Assembly (NCBI RefSeq): GCF_007097395.1
Contig: NZ_VKDC01000001.1
Coordinates: 131,501 to 195,500, forward strand
DNA: 64,000 nucleotides
Direction: 5' to 3'
Source of the DNA: Fulvivirga sp. M361
GTDB taxonomy: Bacteria > Bacteroidota > Bacteroidia > Cytophagales > Cyclobacteriaceae
Shown: positions 38,248 to 47,015 of the stretch, piece by piece
How positions within the stretch are numbered: the first letter of the stretch is position 1
Layout: the number at the start of each line of letters is the position of its first letter
Notes under the pieces: model-generated
Told to the model about the DNA's origin: nothing
Databases searched by the model: none
What the model saw: the letters and a program-made list of their open reading frames with translations, nothing else
Position numbers and translations under genes: made by a program

Positions 38248-41200
38248 CTAATATTCGTCGTAAGGAATACTTACTGTAAATTCAGTATAAACCCCTTTTT
38301 CTGATTCAAATTCAATCTGAACACCCAGTTTTTCGCTGGCTAATTTTACAAGATACAACCCAAGTCCATTTCCTTTTGACAGATCTGAAGCCCGGAAAAA
38401 CATTTCGTATACACGCTTTGAATACCTGGGATCAATTCCTATTCCGTTATCAAATATCTTGACCTCAATGCTGTTCTTTTTATACTTTGTAGAGACCTTG
38501 ATCTCATGTTTCTCGTTGCTTAATTTCTTACGAAAAGTTAGTGCGTTGTCCAGTAAGTTCTTAATTATGATAGTAAGCAGATAAGTATCTGAGATCAGTA
38601 AACTATTCTTATCCAAATCAAAAGAATAAATCGTTTCTCCCTCTCTATCCAAAAACTTTAATGACTCACAGGTATTGTGAATAAGTGCTATAAGATCTAC
38701 CTCTTCCCGGTTAGCATGTGTATTAATAATATCATGGACCTGCATAAGTTTAGAAAGCAGGGTCTCCATTTCAAGTGTCGTTTCCTCTATCAGACTAAAG
38801 TATTTTTCATTATTCCCATCCAACGATTCAAGTTTAGCCAGGGCAGTCAATCCATGTATCCGGTTGATAGGTCCTTTAAGGTCATGAGAAGCGCGGTAAA
38901 TGAACATATCAAGTTCGCTGTTGATCTGCTTCAACTTTTCCATGGTAGATTTGATGCGAGAAGTCCTGTTCTCTACCTCTTTCTCCAATGAGTAGTTGAG
39001 CTCTGTGAGTTTTTTGTTAATGCTCAGAATTTTTTCCTGGGATTTATTGAGTAGATTATTTTTAGACTCAATGTCCTCTTTTTGACTGGTGATCTCTTCA
39101 TGACGTATCTTAAGCAGATCATTTTGCTTTTCTATTTCCTTCTTTTGTGACATTACCTCAAATGTTCTGTCCGCCACAATAAGCTTTAATTTCTGTTTCT
39201 GCATTCGTATGCGGTAAGAATACCCTAGTGCTATGAACCAAATAAATAAGCCTACTAAAACACTTATAACGGAATATGCCCAACTGGTCTGATACCATGG
39301 TGGTAAAATAGTAAAGGCATAAAAGGCTTGCTTCCCCTCCCGGTTATATATATTCCTCGACTTGACATAAAAAGTATAATCACCAGCAGGCAGATTACTG
39401 TATTCCTTCTTATACTCTTTTGACCAGGTAGACCAGTCACCATCATTATTGTCAAGATAGTAGCTAAATTCGTTTTTTTCCTGTGTTATATAGCTGGTAG
39501 CCGAATACTCGAAACTAATATCGTTCAACTCATAATCTAACTTTAGTCTAAAGCCGTGAGGCTGTCGGGCAGCAATAGAAGGTATTTGATTCTTGTCAGA
39601 TGACACTGCCGTAGCACCGTTAAAAAGAACCGAATCAACCGTGCTGACCCGCCTTATCAATGTATTGAAAGGCTGATGATAATCCCTTTTTATGCGCTGA
39701 TCAAAGCGGAATAAGCCTTCTGTTCCTGCTATCCATACAAGGCTATCCCCTTCAGCATAGACAGTCATCACTTCCATATCCGGTAAACGATTGAAAGGAG
39801 TGCTTTCCCGCACATATTTACCTTCCTCACCATAGTAATACTTCTCAACCCGCTCATTTCTTTCATTATCAAGATAAGAAAGAAAATAATCTCCTTTTGA
39901 ATCACCGGTAATGGACATAATTTTATGTTCTGACGCAATGAAAGTTCCGTTTTTTTCAAAAGTCAAAGTATCATTTACATCTTTAATTAAACTGTAGATG
40001 CCTGAACCTGTGGTAAATAGTAATTGGTCATGGTATTCAAAGATATTGATCTCACTTAGGTCAGGAAGACCGGCTTTCTCGTCATAGAGTTTTACAGGTA
40101 CTTTTGATGAGGGGTCCGGTTCAACCCGGTAAACGCCCAAAAATTTAGATGCCGCCCAGATCGTTTCATTTTTATCTTGATAAATACTGCGAAACGTATT
40201 GTTCGGGCTTTTTAGCAAATCATGTCGGTCAAAGCCATCACTGCTTAAATTGATGATGCTCAAACCATCCAGATGACCCACAATAATTTCATCATTATTA
40301 TTTGATATGGCCAGTTTAGACACATTTGGGAAATTCGATATTTTGACCAACTTACTTTCCGAGATATAAAAAAGACCTTCATTACCTCCTGCAAGAAGGA
40401 TATTATTATGTCCTTTGGAATCAACCGTAATAAGTGTCCATACTTTGCCATTAATCCCCTCTATTTTCTGAAAAATCCCATCCTTTTTATAAAAAAGGCC
40501 CTCGGTAGTTGCAATATATACCGTATTATCAAACCTCACCACATCCCAGACGGTACCTTCAACGCCTTGATCCTGACCCCAAAAAAGCCAGGGGGAGTAA
40601 AGATCAATGGTGGCTATACCTTCCTGCATGGCTACCCACAGCTGCTCCTGATGGTCGAACATTAAATCTCTTACATGGTTACTCTGCAGTCCCCGCGATC
40701 TATCGATCACAAATTCTACATTGAGGTCAGACCCTGTCAGAATAATACCACTGCCCAGGGAGCCAAAAACATACTTATTAGCTTCAGTTTTATACCCTGC
40801 AAATAATAGGCTCTTAGACAGATATTCATTTATCGAGCCGGGCATAGGGTACACACTATCTTCATCAAATTCATAAAACCCTTCTTTTAATGTACCTATG
40901 ATGGTCTGATTTTCATCTACCGGATCAACAAATGTCACAGCGGACAGATCTTTTACATTCAGGTGATTTACTTTTTCGAGGAGTCCGTTTTCTGCGAGTT
41001 TTACAAGGTCATTACCTTTTAAAAAGCAATATATGTCACCTCCCACTTCGAAAGGTGCATAATTAAAATTGTTATTTTCAGGTCGCCATACCTCAAATAC
41101 TTCATGCTCCTCATCCAGCTTGAAAATAGCTTCCTTTGAAAAAAAATAGACCCCGCTCGAAGCACATAAAATGAACCTGATGACATTAAAATTAACCTCT

Positions 41201-41562
41201 ACAGGAATTTTATTTTTTAGGGAAACGTAATGAAGATCACCGCTAAGATCCGGGGTCAAGTGGCCAAAATCCCTTTTACCACCTACATAGATCTTATTAC
41301 TTTCTGAAATAGCAAGTGATAAAACATTTGAATTAGACGCGATAGGAATATGCCTCCAATTAAGTCCGTCATATTCTAATACCCCACTGTAATTCGCAAT
41401 GTAGATTAAGCCATCCTGGCTTTGTGCCAAACTGAAGTTTGAGAGAGAAGCGGTATAATCAGATCGCTTGAAATTGTTAATAAAATATCGACCGGATTTC
41501 TGCGCCAAAAGCGGCGTGAAAGAAGAAAATACTATGATAACTAAAGATAGTCTTGGAAACAT
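38248..41562 (-). CDS. Two-component beta-propeller sensor histidine kinase
   Basis: The 1104-residue protein has a signal peptide (to about 20), a periplasmic propeller (about 25-640; Reg_prop-like blades such as LWVAMQEGIATIDLYSP), a Y_Y_Y domain (about 660-745: YYLDNNDGDWSTWSKE, LPAGDYTFYVKSRN), one membrane segment (about 755-780), a long coiled coil (about 790-870) and a kinase core (FIYRASHDLKGPINRIHGLT; NLLDNALTFR; IFDNGIGIDP; GNGLGLYLVK). Unlike SusR-type hybrids it lacks a receiver and AraC domain, so it needs a separate regulator. It is the last gene of the minus-strand group containing the small peptide. Confidence 0.93.
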   Translation of the reverse strand: MFPRLSLVIIVFSSFTPLLAQKSGRYFINNFKRSDYTASLSNFSLAQSQDGLIYIANYSGVLEYDGLNWRHIPIASNSNVLSLAISESNKIYVGGKRDFGHLTPDLSGDLHYVSLKNKIPVEVNFNVIRFILCASSGVYFFSKEAIFKLDEEHEVFEVWRPENNNFNYAPFEVGGDIYCFLKGNDLVKLAENGLLEKVNHLNVKDLSAVTFVDPVDENQTIIGTLKEGFYEFDEDSVYPMPGSINEYLSKSLLFAGYKTEANKYVFGSLGSGIILTGSDLNVEFVIDRSRGLQSNHVRDLMFDHQEQLWVAMQEGIATIDLYSPWLFWGQDQGVEGTVWDVVRFDNTVYIATTEGLFYKKDGIFQKIEGINGKVWTLITVDSKGHNNILLAGGNEGLFYISESKLVKISNFPNVSKLAISNNNDEIIVGHLDGLSIINLSSDGFDRHDLLKSPNNTFRSIYQDKNETIWAASKFLGVYRVEPDPSSKVPVKLYDEKAGLPDLSEINIFEYHDQLLFTTGSGIYSLIKDVNDTLTFEKNGTFIASEHKIMSITGDSKGDYFLSYLDNERNERVEKYYYGEEGKYVRESTPFNRLPDMEVMTVYAEGDSLVWIAGTEGLFRFDQRIKRDYHQPFNTLIRRVSTVDSVLFNGATAVSSDKNQIPSIAARQPHGFRLKLDYELNDISFEYSATSYITQEKNEFSYYLDNNDGDWSTWSKEYKKEYSNLPAGDYTFYVKSRNIYNREGKQAFYAFTILPPWYQTSWAYSVISVLVGLFIWFIALGYSYRIRMQKQKLKLIVADRTFEVMSQKKEIEKQNDLLKIRHEEITSQKEDIESKNNLLNKSQEKILSINKKLTELNYSLEKEVENRTSRIKSTMEKLKQINSELDMFIYRASHDLKGPINRIHGLTALAKLESLDGNNEKYFSLIEETTLEMETLLSKLMQVHDIINTHANREEVDLIALIHNTCESLKFLDREGETIYSFDLDKNSLLISDTYLLTIIIKNLLDNALTFRKKLSNEKHEIKVSTKYKKNSIEVKIFDNGIGIDPRYSKRVYEMFFRASDLSKGNGLGLYLVKLASEKLGVQIEFESEKGVYTEFTVSIPYDEY

Positions 41563-41667: not shown

Positions 41668-42162
41668 CTAGTATTTTTTTATTGAATTGATATAATCAGG
41701 ATTGTATTTAGAAGCAAAAGTGTCGTACCATTTTACAAGAGTTTCAGCACCCAGATGGTCATAAATAGCACTATACTGACTTTTTAATTTAGCTTCATGT
41801 TCTTTCATCACTTTTACCGGTTCGGTAAGCATGCGTTGGTGTTGTGATTTTTTTACTTTAGGCGCCGTAGGTTGATGATGGATCAGTCTTTTGAAATGAT
41901 CTGAACAGAATTTATAATACTGCCTTGTATGAAGTATAAAAGTATGCCACATTTCATCGATAATGATGAGTGGCCGATCTATGAACAGAGGGTTTTCAAG
42001 TTCTTCCGCTTTAGAAGCCAGCCATAGCCACTTTTTTGTTTCATTAAAAAGATCTACGGCCTCATCATGGGAAACGTCATAACGTTCCATAAACCCTTCA
42101 ATGATCAGTGCCTCATCTTCGCAATCAAGTGCGTTTATAAGACGCTTTTCGCTAATCGTCAT
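41668..42162 (-). CDS. DUF1399/glycine-rich-domain-like protein
   Basis: The 164-residue cytoplasmic protein has the pattern KKWLWLASKAEELENPLFID then IIDEMWHTFILHTRQYYKFC and HHQPTAP, which resembles the core of DUF1399/GRDP proteins (xxxDxxWHTHILxTxxYxxFC, then HHxP). The C-terminal part (MKEHEAKLKSQYSAIYDHLG) is helical. Its function is unknown. It lies about 150 bp downstream of the 46-residue peptide gene on the same strand, with a hairpin between them, so the two may form one transcriptional unit. Confidence 0.7.
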   Translation of the reverse strand: MTISEKRLINALDCEDEALIIEGFMERYDVSHDEAVDLFNETKKWLWLASKAEELENPLFIDRPLIIIDEMWHTFILHTRQYYKFCSDHFKRLIHHQPTAPKVKKSQHQRMLTEPVKVMKEHEAKLKSQYSAIYDHLGAETLVKWYDTFASKYNPDYINSIKKY

Positions 42163-42182
42163 GATTTTAATACGTTAAATGA

Positions 42183-42213
42183 AAGAGCCATCCCTGGAGT
42201 CGAGATGACTCTT
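42183..42213. terminator. Hairpin between the peptide gene and its downstream partner
   Basis: AAGAG-C-CATC (42183-42192) pairs with GATG-A-CTCTT (42204-42213), one mismatch, 11-nt loop. Read on the minus strand it precedes a weak T-rich stretch (CTTTCATTT). It could be an attenuator that makes the peptide transcript more abundant than the downstream gene. Confidence 0.4.
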
Positions 42214-42312
42214 ATTTATTTCTTATAGCCCTGAGCTTTGGAAATATGAACCCTCAAAGATCAGGTCTTACTGATATAATATCTTATTCACTTATTAGGC
42301 AAGAAACTCACC

Positions 42313-42453
42313 TTAAGGAAATACTACGGAGACACAACCTTCGCAATGAACCGCTGCTTTTTCATTCAAAACTTGATTTTTACTGATCAGATTTTCAATA
42401 AGATCTTTCTTGATTTTGCTTTCAGAAGGTTTTTGTTGTGAGTTGTTTAACAT
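42313..42453 (-). CDS. 46-residue peptide with C-terminal Cys pair (candidate RiPP precursor or signal peptide)
   Basis: The ATG at 42453 and the TAA at 42315-42313 bound a 46-codon frame in an AT-rich gap. The N-terminal part is Lys/Asn/Gln-rich and helical (SKIKKDLIENLISKNQVLNE), as in leader regions. The C-terminus is short and different: AAVHCEGCVSVVFP, with a CxxC pair and hydrophobic end. No signal peptide or GG-type leader is seen. A promoter-like TTTTG-N20-TAAGTTAG lies upstream. The DUF1399-like gene follows. It reads as a real gene by composition, but no family is recognised; a modified peptide is inference. Confidence 0.6.
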   Translation of the reverse strand: MLNNSQQKPSESKIKKDLIENLISKNQVLNEKAAVHCEGCVSVVFP

Positions 42454-42487
42454 AACTTGTAAGATTTATTTATGATTAATTACACAA

Positions 42488-42520
42488 CTAACTTAGGAAT
42501 CTGATTGCTTAAATTCAAAA
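42488..42520 (-). promoter_or_regulatory. Bacteroidota-type promoter candidate for the peptide gene
   Basis: On the minus strand TTTTG (42520-42516) and TAAGTTAG (42495-42488) are 20 nt apart, close to the Bacteroidota TTTG-N19-21-TAnnTTTG consensus. It would give a 5' leader of about 30 nt before the peptide start at 42453. Confidence 0.35.
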
Positions 42521-42784
42521 CTTTTTTGATAAAAATTTGCATTATTTAATGATTTCAATATAAAATTCAACAAATTCATAATTTTCATAGGATTATATGA
42601 TTTTAAGTTGGAGACCAGTAAAATAGAGTGGTGGCAGCAGAATAACTTGCTGTATATTAGGTAATTAACAATGAGTTTTCGCCAGGCAACGAAATCTATT
42701 ACAGTATTTTACTAAAAGGCTTGTGAAGCTAGTAATATATGTTAATTACCTCTGTACTAGTGAAAAGGTGAAAAAAAGGGCTAC

Positions 42785-43327
42785 TTACTCAAGCACTTCT
42801 TCTATCTCATCCATTTTTTTTTCACTGTAAGCGCCAGATGTGGCAAAGACGATTTTACCTTGATCATCTAATACAAAAAAATATGGGACGTCTTTCTTTG
42901 AAAATGCCAAAGCGTCCTTATAAGGCTTTAGCTTACCCTTATAAAAAAGTATATATGGCAGCAAACGTGCATCAATGTTCTTAGCAGCTTTTCTTTTTGC
43001 CGTACCGGTAGCCGCAGAATTCACTCCGGTGAACATAGGAATGAAATAGACATTAACATCGTACCCAAAGCCACCAAAAATCCCGTCGCTGGACTGAATG
43101 AACTTATTAAATACAGGACTAAACCAGGTATTCAGGTCTCCTTCGGACTTTTTAGAATACGCCAGACCTAGTAATGTAAACTTACCTTTGGTATCACCCG
43201 GAAGAGAAATAGCAGCGTCCTCAACATTTTCCACTTCCATATCCGGAAATAACTTTCCCACCACCTGGGCGTGTGATTGATTGATCCATAAGCCGATAGA
43301 CAATAAAACAAGGATGTTTTTGAGCAT
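42785..43327 (-). CDS. Secreted thioredoxin-fold protein without catalytic cysteines
   Basis: The 180-residue protein has a signal peptide (to about 20, QSHAQ). The order of strands (KFTLLGLAYSKK, VNVYFIPMFTG, LPYILFYKGKL, VPYFFVLDDQGKIVFATSG) fits a thioredoxin-like fold of the TlpA/ATP10 kind, but no CxxC is present; no Cys remains in the mature part. So it is probably not a redox enzyme. It is divergent from the DoxX gene across a region with two dyads, and upstream of the 46-residue peptide gene on the same strand. Confidence 0.7.
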   Translation of the reverse strand: MLKNILVLLSIGLWINQSHAQVVGKLFPDMEVENVEDAAISLPGDTKGKFTLLGLAYSKKSEGDLNTWFSPVFNKFIQSSDGIFGGFGYDVNVYFIPMFTGVNSAATGTAKRKAAKNIDARLLPYILFYKGKLKPYKDALAFSKKDVPYFFVLDDQGKIVFATSGAYSEKKMDEIEEVLE

Positions 43328-43943: not shown

Positions 43944-45335
43944 ATGTCCACACCATCCTCACATACGCTGCAAGCCATACCGGAACTGAACACTGTTCCA
44001 TTGAATCAGTTACAGTGGCTGGTAGATCAATGTGAAGTTGTCACGTTAGCGCCTGGGGATTATCTTTTCAAGCCAGGGGACCCCATCGATAAGATGTACA
44101 TACTTCTGGAAGGTAGTTTTGCCTTAAAAAGCAAGCAAAACGATCAGTTCCGGTTAATAGATACTATAAAGAAAAATACGATTACGGGATACCTGCCTTA
44201 TTCCAGGGCGAAAGAAGCCTCAGGGTATGCTGAAGCCAATGAAACATCGTGTATCATGGTATTACATCGTCCGCATTTCAAAACTATGATCCATGAGCAT
44301 GAGGAACTGACCACCGCCCTGGTGCATATAATGAGTTCCAGGATCAGACATTTTACCAAGCGACAGCAACAGAACGATAAAATGATGGCCCTGGGAAAGC
44401 TCTCAGCGGGATTAGCACATGAATTGAACAATCCTTCAGCCGCCGTAGTACGAAGTGCACAATCGTTAAAAAAACATCTTTCTTTCCTTCCTGAAAATTT
44501 CAAAAGCGTGATCAAAATACGCACGGAAGATGAAACCATTGACGCTGTAAATAAAATAGTGTTTGACAAGGCCAAAAATGGGATGGTCCTGCTTCCTTTA
44601 ATGGAAAGGTCGGCGAAAGAAGATGAGTTGGCGGAATGGCTGGAAGAAAATGGATTTGACGATGGATATGAGATCGTCGACAATTTTGTGGACTTTGGTT
44701 TTAATGTAGAAGATTTCGAGTACGTAAAAGAAAGCCTTCGAGATGAAGACCTGGTACCCGTTATCAACTGGCTGTACCAGGTACTTACCACAGAGAAACT
44801 GGTGAACGAAATAGAAGATGCTTCACAAAGGATCAACGACCTGGTACGTTCGGTAAAAAGCTACACACATATGGACCAGGCCCCGGAAAAAAAGCCTACC
44901 GACATTCACACGGGCATCAACAATACACTCACCATGTTAAAACATAAAATCAATAAAGGAAACATTGAAGTTATCCCGGAATTTGGCCAGGTGCCTGAGG
45001 TGGCCGTTTTTGTGAGTGAAATAAACCAGGTCTGGACTAACCTGATCGATAATGCCATAGATGCTATGGAATCATCAAAAGATAAAAAACTGACCCTTCA
45101 AACCTTAAGAGATGGAAAATTCGTCCTTGTCAATATTATCGACAGCGGAAAAGGGATCTCTGCAGAAGAAATAGATAAGATCTTTGACCCTTTCTTTACT
45201 ACCAAACCCATCGGTAAAGGCACCGGACTGGGACTTGATGTGGTCCATCAGATCGTTGGACAACACAATGGTTCCGTGAAAGTAATTTCTGAGCCGGGCC
45301 GTACAGAGTTTCAGGTTTGTTTACCTATTCAATAG
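43944..45335 (+). CDS. Cyclic-nucleotide-binding-domain sensor histidine kinase
   Basis: The 463-residue cytoplasmic protein has a cNMP-binding-like domain (about 15-130: LAPGDYLFKPGDPIDKMYIL), a HisKA domain (GKLSAGLAHELNNPSAAVVR, His in about 155) and a HATPase domain (NLIDNAIDAM, IIDSGKGIS, GKGTGLGLDVVHQI). A helical insert of about 130 residues lies between HisKA and HATPase. It is the first gene of a three-gene operon (18-bp gap to the receiver-flavoprotein fusion). The nucleotide, if any, is unknown. Confidence 0.93.
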   Translation: MSTPSSHTLQAIPELNTVPLNQLQWLVDQCEVVTLAPGDYLFKPGDPIDKMYILLEGSFALKSKQNDQFRLIDTIKKNTITGYLPYSRAKEASGYAEANETSCIMVLHRPHFKTMIHEHEELTTALVHIMSSRIRHFTKRQQQNDKMMALGKLSAGLAHELNNPSAAVVRSAQSLKKHLSFLPENFKSVIKIRTEDETIDAVNKIVFDKAKNGMVLLPLMERSAKEDELAEWLEENGFDDGYEIVDNFVDFGFNVEDFEYVKESLRDEDLVPVINWLYQVLTTEKLVNEIEDASQRINDLVRSVKSYTHMDQAPEKKPTDIHTGINNTLTMLKHKINKGNIEVIPEFGQVPEVAVFVSEINQVWTNLIDNAIDAMESSKDKKLTLQTLRDGKFVLVNIIDSGKGISAEEIDKIFDPFFTTKPIGKGTGLGLDVVHQIVGQHNGSVKVISEPGRTEFQVCLPIQ

Positions 45336-45353: not shown

Positions 45354-47015
45354 ATGAAAAAACCAATCATATTTGCCGTAGATGACGACCCTGCCGTGTT
45401 ACGTGCTGTAGTACGTGATCTACGTGACGCTTATAAAAAAGAATATCGTATCCTGGCTACTGAATCTGCTAATGAAGCGCTGGAATCACTTAAAGAGCTG
45501 AAAAATAAAGGGGAGGCGGTGGCTTTATTTTTAAGCGATCAACGCATGCCTGAAATGTTAGGGGTGGAATTCCTGGAAAAGGCCAGGGCAATTTATCCGG
45601 GAGCCAAACGTGTGCTGTTAACAGCCTATTCAGACACTGACGCTGCTATCCGGGCCATTAATGAGGTACAACTGGATTATTACCTCATGAAACCTTGGGA
45701 CCCGCCTGAAGAACGATTATATCCGGCGCTGAATGATCAACTGGAAGAGTGGCAAAGCTCTTTCCGTCCGGAATTTGATGGGATCAGGATCGTAGGCTAT
45801 CAGTGGTCGCCAAAATCACACACTATTAAAGACTTTCTTTCCGGTAATTTGATCCCCTATCAATGGATGGATGTGGAAACTAATGGTAATGGTAATGAAC
45901 TACTGGAATTGAACGGTATCGATCATAAAGACCTTCCTGCTGTTTTTTTCAATGACGGTAGTAAGCTTATAAACCCGGAACTACCGGAAGTAGCGCAAAA
46001 TGTGGGCATGATAGCGATCGCTCAGCAAAAGATGTATGACGTTGCTATCATCGGAGCAGGCCCGGCAGGATTAGCAGGGGGCGTTTATGGGGGATCAGAA
46101 GGGCTGAATACACTTTTAATTGAGAAACGCGCGCCGGGAGGACAAGCAGGGACAAGCTCACGCATAGAAAACTACCTGGGCTTTCCAAAAGGCCTTAGTG
46201 GTGCTGAACTTTCAAGAAGGGCCATCACACAAGCCACACGTTTCGGAATAGAATTTCTGTCGCCACAGGAGGTAGTGAATATAAAACTCCAGGATAACTA
46301 CAAAATACTTCAGTTAGTAGATGGCAATGAGGTAAATGCCAAAAGCGTTGTGATCACCACAGGTGTGGATTACAGGAAGCTGGAGGCCGAGGGTGTAGAC
46401 GATTTTACAGGCGCCGGAGTTTACTACGGCGCTGCCAATACAGAGGCAAATGCATGCCGTAATGAAGAGGTATATATCGTAGGAGGGGGTAACTCTGCGG
46501 GGCAAGCTGCCATGTACCTTTCTAACTTCGCACGTAATGTATATATCCTCATCAGGAAGCCTGACCTGAGCTCCAGTATGTCACAATACCTCATAGACCA
46601 AATCAACGGGACTGAGAACATTCATGTACTTGGCTATACCGAGGTGGCTAAGGCCATAGGAAAAGACAGGTTGCAACAGCTGGTACTCAAAGACATTCAG
46701 AAGAAGGAAGATCGTACTGTGGAAGCAGGCGCTTTACTTATTTTCATTGGAGCCAAACCCTATACAGATTGGCTGCAACTCAATATTATAAAAGATAAGA
46801 AGGGATTTATAGAAACAGGTAACGGATTAAATAAATACCATGATTTTAAAAAAATATGGAAGCTGGAGCGAGAACCCTTTTTATTGGAAACCTGCAGTCC
46901 CGGTATCTTCGCCGCAGGTGATGTACGTGCCGGTGCTATGAACCGTGTGGCCTCTGCCGTAGGTGAAGGTGCCATGGCCATTAAACTGGTTCATGAATAC
47001 CTGGCAGAAAACTGA
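45354..47015 (+). CDS. Receiver domain fused to glutaredoxin-like and TrxR-like FAD reductase domains
   Basis: The 553-residue protein starts with a receiver (1-130: VDDDPAVLRAVVRDLR, phosphoacceptor Asp in LFLSDQRMP). Residues about 140-225 look like a thioredoxin/glutaredoxin fold lacking cysteines (GYQWSPKSHTIKDFL). The rest is a two-dinucleotide-domain flavoprotein: VAIIGAGPAGLAGGVYGGSE (FAD), VYIVGGGNSAGQAAMYL (NAD(P)H) and the TCSPGIFAAGDVR end. Where thioredoxin reductases have CxxC, it has NACRNE with a single Cys, so it is probably not a thioredoxin reductase. It sits between the histidine kinase and the UBP zinc finger. Confidence 0.93.
   Translation: MKKPIIFAVDDDPAVLRAVVRDLRDAYKKEYRILATESANEALESLKELKNKGEAVALFLSDQRMPEMLGVEFLEKARAIYPGAKRVLLTAYSDTDAAIRAINEVQLDYYLMKPWDPPEERLYPALNDQLEEWQSSFRPEFDGIRIVGYQWSPKSHTIKDFLSGNLIPYQWMDVETNGNGNELLELNGIDHKDLPAVFFNDGSKLINPELPEVAQNVGMIAIAQQKMYDVAIIGAGPAGLAGGVYGGSEGLNTLLIEKRAPGGQAGTSSRIENYLGFPKGLSGAELSRRAITQATRFGIEFLSPQEVVNIKLQDNYKILQLVDGNEVNAKSVVITTGVDYRKLEAEGVDDFTGAGVYYGAANTEANACRNEEVYIVGGGNSAGQAAMYLSNFARNVYILIRKPDLSSSMSQYLIDQINGTENIHVLGYTEVAKAIGKDRLQQLVLKDIQKKEDRTVEAGALLIFIGAKPYTDWLQLNIIKDKKGFIETGNGLNKYHDFKKIWKLEREPFLLETCSPGIFAAGDVRAGAMNRVASAVGEGAMAIKLVHEYLAEN

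Follow-up and report, generated by a model that had tools for sequence, protein, structure and literature searches.

What does a 46-codon open reading frame with a cysteine-containing tail encode, and do the genes behind it act with it? The frame lies on the minus strand of a 64,000-nucleotide stretch of the Fulvivirga sp. M361 genome (the window), where a sequence-only reading had proposed a small leader-core peptide followed by a hairpin, an uncharacterised protein and a sensor, in the manner of a RiPP or peptide-signal system. The reading frames of 180, 46, 164 and 1104 residues on which that proposal was built are present where it had placed them (open reading frame list), in this order along the minus strand between 43.3 and 38.2 kb:

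42785..43327, minus strand: thioredoxin-like open reading frame, 180 aa (Pfam matches below cut-off only)
42313..42453, minus strand: precursor peptide gene, 46 codons, product MLNNSQQKPSESKIKKDLIENLISKNQVLNEKAAVHCEGCVSVVFP (open reading frame list; homologues adjoin partner homologues; chance control)
42349..42453, minus strand: leader of the 46-aa peptide, residues 1-35, presumed boundary, motif K-K-D-L-I-x-x-L-x-x-K-N
42316..42348, minus strand: putative core HCEGCVSVVFP of the 46-aa peptide, two cysteines, presumed boundary
42183..42213, minus strand: hairpin with a 12-pair stem, between the peptide and partner genes
41668..42162, minus strand: partner, 164 aa, predicted all-helical, D69-E-M-W-H73...Y82...C86...H95-H96
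38248..41562, minus strand: sensor histidine kinase, 1104 aa, third gene of the cassette (Pfam)

The 180-residue frame has weak matches to ATP10 and Thioredoxin_2, both below the Pfam cut-off, and its proposed place in the unit did not survive comparison: of 21 loci, only three (the window, L046 and L047) have a same-strand homologue upstream. The promoter-like pair described upstream of the peptide gene was likewise dropped, as the number of E. coli-type pairs there (5) does not exceed the 5.9 expected by chance. Downstream of the kinase, on the opposite strand, lies a peptide-methionine sulfoxide reductase (PMSR; Pfam), and none of the genes adjoining the cassette in the window encodes an exporter, a protease, a known maturase or a response regulator (open reading frame list, flanks and Pfam). 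The same genome holds a C39-ABC and HlyD pair at L194 (Pfam). As a separate observation, a cNMP_binding-HATPase_c kinase at window positions 43944-45335 (plus strand; Pfam) is followed at 45354-47015 (plus strand) by a receiver fused to a pyridine-nucleotide-disulphide oxidoreductase (Pfam), an unusual redox signalling pair; the receiver-containing frame is divergent from the cassette.

Listing all open reading frames of at least 30 residues within about 1 kb 5′ of the partner gene, for the window together with the 16 homologous loci nearest to it, revealed at 17 of 17 a frame of 41-69 residues with a related leader close upstream of the partner homologue. The small leader-core peptide gene is thereby borne out, and homologous small frames, whose absence beside partner homologues the sequence-only reading had named as evidence against itself, were found at each of these 17 loci. 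Under a single rule, applied within 400 bp upstream at 79 of 80 named loci, a peptide-like frame was found ahead of 52 of the 79 partner homologues, as against 26 of 455 other genes of the same loci; the rule was written after the peptides had been seen and the control genes were judged by the identical rule, and many loci are close relatives, so that locus counts are not independent. Among 41 genes of the window, two have such a frame, the 46-codon gene being one. Related small frames occur at 24 loci of what we call type A, the branch of Fulvivirga and Marivirga that includes the window and combines variable cores with a sensor.

The leaders usually end in K-K-(D/E)-L-I-x-x-L-x-x-K-N, more loosely in L009, L012 and L029, and columns K15, L18 and I19 of the peptide alignment (A2) are nearly invariant. 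The expected pair of cysteines is general but not universal: at least two occur in 22 of 23 listed tails, with a single one in L028 and in L029 (the latter outside the list), a tally biased towards cysteine-bearing cores because the lists retained only frames with a cysteine near the end. Within the asnS-linked trio L003, L004 and L005, leaders are identical at 23-25 of 26 residues (dN 0.016-0.057, dS 0.07-0.20), and despite this near-identity the tails differ in length and sequence; L013 and L014 share all 26 leader residues, with two synonymous changes, and again have different tails. These comparisons support a constrained leader and a variable core wherever close pairs allow measurement. 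The window leader matches those of L007 and L008 at 13 and 11 of 26 residues, with dS saturated, and therefore no dN/dS ratio is available for the 46-codon gene of the window. The peptide belongs to no Pfam or NCBIfam family; a search with it found one match in its own genome and, in 14 other genomes of the genus, just four of the places beside a partner gene (E 9e-5 to 0.9). A GG motif is absent from the type A leaders, which therefore have no visible C39 cleavage site. Judged by these comparisons, the 46-codon frame is a real gene, with the conserved leader and variable core of a ribosomally made RiPP precursor.

The 164-residue partner has no Pfam or NCBIfam family either. Searches with it recovered homologues in 26 of 98 related genomes and, in the genome of the window, one full-length copy and one distant paralogue; the partners of the 16 closest loci are 49-65% identical to it. 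Across 32 diverse homologues D69, E70, M71, W72, H73, Y82, H96, G138 and W145 are invariant, with C86 retained in 30 and H95 in 29; the invariance of DEMWH is partly by construction, because homologous loci were chosen through the patterns IIDEMWH and KW[YF]..., and D, W, H, F-C and H-H come back in paralogues from a whole-genome search. AlphaFold2 confidently models the protein as all-helical (pLDDT 94.1, pTM 0.88), without a clear match in the PDB, and no signal peptide or hydrophobic start is visible by eye. D69, H73, Y82, C86, H95 and H96, invariant or nearly so, look like a metal or catalytic site.

The DUF1399 label attached to the partner does not hold at the level of profiles. PF07173 (GRDP-like), which we take to be the former DUF1399, has no match in the genome of the window at E up to 10, exceeds its cut-off in 0 of 6 genomes and is not among the families listed (25 of 32) for 32 partner homologues. 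Only distant GRDP-like paralogues from Fulvivirga score, weakly and below cut-off (L068:1579-2079, minus strand; L069:2962-3462, plus strand); they carry VDQVWH...HHGPT and share D-x-x-W-H...Y...F-C...H-H with the partner. What remains is a distant resemblance at best, from which shared ancestry with the PF07173 family is possible. Each of these paralogues is followed by an uncharacterised gene of about 260 residues.

The third gene encodes a kinase with HATPase_c, Reg_prop and Y_Y_Y matches and a HisKA match 0.2 bits under the Pfam cut-off. As the sequence-only reading had it, the sensor is part of the layout: a Reg_prop-type histidine kinase of about 1,100 residues follows the partner on the same strand at 15 of the 17 closest loci and is the next large gene in 21 of 23, with a gap from the partner match of 57-184 bp in 20. 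At L087 the kinase begins 859 bp past the match; L043 is cut by a contig end with the kinase start visible; L029/L054 has no kinase and one tail cysteine. Further upstream the gene content varies by group: among the window and the 20 loci whose flanks were compared there are asnS, lipoamide-dehydrogenase-like and TlpA/DoxX-like types (named by eye, except DoxX_2 by Pfam). When other genomes were searched with the sensor part of the window kinase, the cassette kinase ranked first in 6 of 7. Where two cassettes are present (G002, G009 and G014), both cassette kinases scored 482-597 bits and all other kinases at most 312, and in the genome of the window the next kinase reached 232 bits at 28% identity; in Marivirga atlantica (G495), a non-cassette kinase scored 250.6 bits against 243.4 for the cassette kinase. 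Partner distances correlate with those of the sensor part at a Spearman coefficient of 0.56 and with those of the catalytic part at 0.67, so that co-evolution of sensor and partner is not borne out, the sensor part doing no better than the catalytic part. Of two marks of a peptide-pheromone system, the sensor kinase is inherited with the peptide gene, and an adjacent response regulator is absent from the window. Collectively, the comparisons support that peptide, partner and kinase are kept together as a unit, and the layout of peptide, hairpin, uncharacterised partner and sensor is retained across loci.

The hairpin of the window is real, with its 12-pair stem, and lies near the partner start, not right after the peptide; in many other loci it directly follows the peptide stop codon. 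Hairpins of at least 10 pairs, differing in sequence among loci, occupy this gap at 13 of the 17 closest loci and at 13 of 24 type A loci, compared with 18 of 80 control gaps, at 0 of 7 further type A loci (five from Marivirga, two from MAGs) and at 20 of 20 loci of the type B branch described below. Around the window hairpin, a terminator scan listed sites on the plus strand and none on the minus strand. The element fits an attenuator or RNA-processing site that would yield more precursor than enzyme, as such elements do in bacteriocin operons.

Our reading of the locus, to which we give a probability of roughly 60%, is that precursor, partner and sensor kinase form a RiPP-like signal-peptide cassette. 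The 46-residue product would be a precursor composed of a conserved, probably helical leader and a short, variable core with two cysteines. The partner would bind the leader and process the core, most likely by chemistry on or around the cysteines at its conserved Asp/His/Cys site; the finished peptide would leave the cell through an exporter encoded in trans, for example the C39-ABC and HlyD pair at L194, and would be read by the co-inherited Reg_prop histidine kinase, while the hairpin would let the precursor mRNA exceed that of partner and kinase. We infer both the maturase role of the partner and the sensing of the peptide by the kinase from sequence. Three sensor builds follow the partner in different loci (Reg_prop kinase, TPR kinase and SpoIIE-type protein), which argues for a signal. 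The RiPP or peptide-signal idea is well supported by the conserved unit, the leader and core pattern and the homologues in RiPP clusters.

The surroundings of partner homologues in other genomes bear on the chemistry. In the named-genome scan (best 80 of 84 loci, selected with the patterns IIDEMWH and KW[YF]...), neighbours were tallied by comparison with representative neighbouring genes, up to about 6 kb from the partner. Reg_prop- or TPR-type kinases were matched by 19 loci and a SpoIIE-type protein by 1; an MSIFPKR protein and a TonB receptor by the same 27; HlyD by 9 and an ABC transporter by 16, of which 9 reach the C39 part; an S9-type hydrolase by 6; P450 plus methyltransferase by 5; SPASM by 3; and ATP-grasp, LanB and a JmjC-type cupin by 2 each, with no match at 10. 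Pfam identified Peptidase_C39 with an ABC transporter at L103, L104, L108, L109, L117 and L132, with HlyD in L104, as well as LanB in L112, JmjC_2 in L145, methyltransferase and P450 in L096, Peptidase_S9 in L091 and a TonB receptor in L118; L103 also has ATP-grasp families and SPASM, all below or just below cut-off. Sensors after the partner include TPR-HisKA kinases in L144 and L148 and, behind two peptide copies in L100, a SpoIIE-type protein that matches 7TMR-DISM below threshold.

A clear GG-leader cysteine precursor was present at 9 of 24 chosen loci (L099, L103, L104, L108, L109, L110, L117, L126 and L130), in Aquimarina agarilytica, a Flavobacteriaceae genome, Paraglaciecola, Tolypothrix, Pleurocapsa, two Pseudoalteromonas, a Shewanella and a gammaproteobacterium. 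Three of the 24 have other peptides (L100, L148 and L152) and 12 no clear precursor, including the LanB locus L112; for L132, without a clear one among the 24, a precursor appears in a separate list of reading frames. Leaders akin to that of the window occur in L117 (SKENLISELMQDTVKGG-CC) and, downstream of the partner, in L096 (MNKSKIINSLVNKN). These gene neighbourhoods support the occurrence of partner homologues within recognisable RiPP clusters; linkage to modification or export genes is seen at part of the homologous loci and is absent at the window locus.

Several of these loci have features of their own. At L152, a stretch about 310-870 bp 5′ of the partner contains the same 41-codon peptide gene three times in tandem, all copies identical; a pair of similar copies is present in L147 and another pair in L100. 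L093 (Epilithonimonas hominis) combines LanB-like and SPASM-like tblastn matches less than 6 kb from the partner with a GG-type cysteine peptide, and is possibly an uncatalogued RiPP cluster. In Pseudomonas morbosilactucae, the partner homologue (L145:5977-6615, plus strand) bears its own C-terminal, Cys-rich, precursor-like extension and is followed by ABC and JmjC_2 cupin genes.

The company that the partner keeps also suits a variant of our reading that does not exclude it, in which the partner is not itself an enzyme but a leader-binding chaperone or a leader-peptidase subunit that serves many RiPP systems, and the peptide undergoes no more than clipping and disulfide formation before it signals. 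The partner accompanies very different enzymes (LanB, ATP-grasp/SPASM, P450 and JmjC) and is the sole candidate in type A loci. Against this stand the metal-like or catalytic appearance and near invariance of D69, H73, Y82, C86, H95 and H96, DEMWH being partly a search pattern; we hold the variant to be a serious, though minority, possibility.

GG-leader precursors with C39-ABC and HlyD genes beside partner homologues, together with variable cores compatible with arms races, would suit a secreted antimicrobial, a bacteriocin-like RiPP for which the kinase has only a regulatory or damage-sensing role and the partner serves as maturase or immunity factor. However, loci of the window type have no adjacent exporter, their constant third gene is a sensor, and the partners of the 16 closest loci keep 49-65% identity to that of the window while cores vary, which is not expected of an immunity protein. 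We consider an antimicrobial unlikely.

A second branch, type B, is found in Aquimarina, Tenacibaculum, Mucilaginibacter, Reichenbachiella and also Fulvivirga, and has a TonB receptor and a core that hardly varies: 27 of 31 peptides read HCSNCGHC, but these were collected with the pattern HC.., and part of the sameness is by choice. Its cassettes, at L118, L114, L138 and 24 further loci, comprise an HCSNCGHC-like peptide, the partner, the MSIFPKR protein and the TonB receptor. Of 27 type B loci examined, 20 have the palindrome TTGCAACA-N-TGTTGCAA (at most two mismatches) some 240-270 bp ahead of the partner match; L135, L136, L147, L121, L137 and Tenacibaculum lack it. It occurs in 0 of 24 type A loci, where the best candidate has five mismatches; on this evidence the window cassette is outside the control of the Zur-like box. 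With at most one mismatch, 15 genomes of the genus contain 24 copies compared with 2 of a reversed control; with at most two, nine genomes contain 49 compared with 12, the Tenacibaculum genome G491 showing the opposite with 1 compared with 5. Of 12 palindrome stretches, four lie near cobW-type GTPase, MerC, ZIP or Fur-family genes (L196, L200, L201 and L202; Pfam), four have TonB-type receptors by eye (L192, L193, L197 and L066), and at four neither metal-type genes nor a TonB receptor is clear. We infer a Zur-type box, and the type B box sequence TTGCAACANTGTTGCAA is a candidate site for a Fur-family protein. Upstream of the peptide genes, Rfam places a DUF805b RNA (RF02914) in two of three type B loci tested (L114:5771-5805 and L118:5765-5802). 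Because of the Zur-like palindrome and the TonB receptor, type B is a candidate zinc-controlled peptide metallophore.

Type B would represent the original job of the system if the peptide of the window bound metal, as a metallophore or as a metal or thiol sensor, with the kinase answering metal status. The 27 loci with MSIFPKR protein and TonB receptor (best 80 of 84) and the palindrome, which 20 of the 27 type B loci have upstream and which also lies near metal-type genes, point in that direction. Type A loci point away from it: they lack the palindrome, a TonB receptor is not among their constant neighbours (by eye) and their cores vary freely. A metal-binding role for the window peptide therefore seems improbable. 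That the 46 codons are a chance by-product of conserved upstream DNA is hardly credible, since such frames do precede some control genes (26 of 455) but far more partners, recur as relatives in 24 type A loci and have, in pairs close enough to measure, a lower dN than dS in the leader.

The signal-peptide cassette may thus represent an unrecognised bacterial peptide-signal system, because relatives of the helper adjoin peptide natural-product genes in several phyla. A broader synthesis, which we offer tentatively and would not bet on at even odds, is that the partner founds an unrecognised RiPP-processing superfamily acting on cysteine cores and reaching from Bacteroidota to proteobacteria and cyanobacteria: in Fulvivirga and Marivirga its product would be a strain-specific signal read by a Reg_prop kinase, an analogue of Agr-type quorum sensing, and in Aquimarina, Mucilaginibacter, Marinoscillum and others a Zur-controlled zincophore taken up through the TonB receptor. 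The processing family within a RiPP-like peptide system is potentially new; partner and peptide are undescribed in the literature that we found, which included few subscription papers. Annotation often misses very short genes, and such precursors therefore stay invisible; a family-less partner that marks cysteine precursors across phyla offers a handle for finding them and points to possibly new peptide chemistry. To our knowledge, few peptide-signal systems are known in Bacteroidota, where the cassette provides a testable one, and type B hints at a ribosomally made zinc metallophore, which is equally open to test.

Among known systems, the methanobactin-like MNIO RiPPs, in the available part of PMC12538549, resemble the cassette in pairing a Cys-containing peptide with a small partner, and type B, with its TonB receptor, is reminiscent of metallophores. 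MNIO (PF05114) is absent from 5 of 5 Fulvivirga-group genomes searched and from the genome of the window; in the Aquimarina genome of L118, PF05114 lies on contig C3 and the cassette palindrome on C34. Cluster 23 proteins, in the accessible portion of PMC8939145, are uncharacterised, linked to ATP-grasp RiPP loci and often endowed with a signal peptide, a lipobox and conserved His/Arg. Compared by that description only, the partner differs in having no hydrophobic start by eye and in conserving D/W/H/Y/C/H. The same portion of PMC8939145 also treats an ATP-grasp locus of Aquimarina agarilytica that is probably our L103. RiPP clusters with C39-ABC export (lanthipeptides, graspetides and GRASP-with-SPASM) share with the window a small precursor, a conserved leader and a variable core, and partner homologues adjoin C39-ABC, LanB (L112) and sub-cut-off ATP-grasp/SPASM-like genes (L103); the window differs in its family-less partner and in having neither an adjacent known maturase or exporter nor a GG site. 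The Agr type is a peptide-pheromone two-component system. Unlike it, the window has no membrane peptidase or adjacent response regulator, its sensor is of the Reg_prop type and its host belongs to the Bacteroidota; like it, the window brings together in one unit a precursor with a variable cysteine core, a possible processing partner and a histidine kinase.
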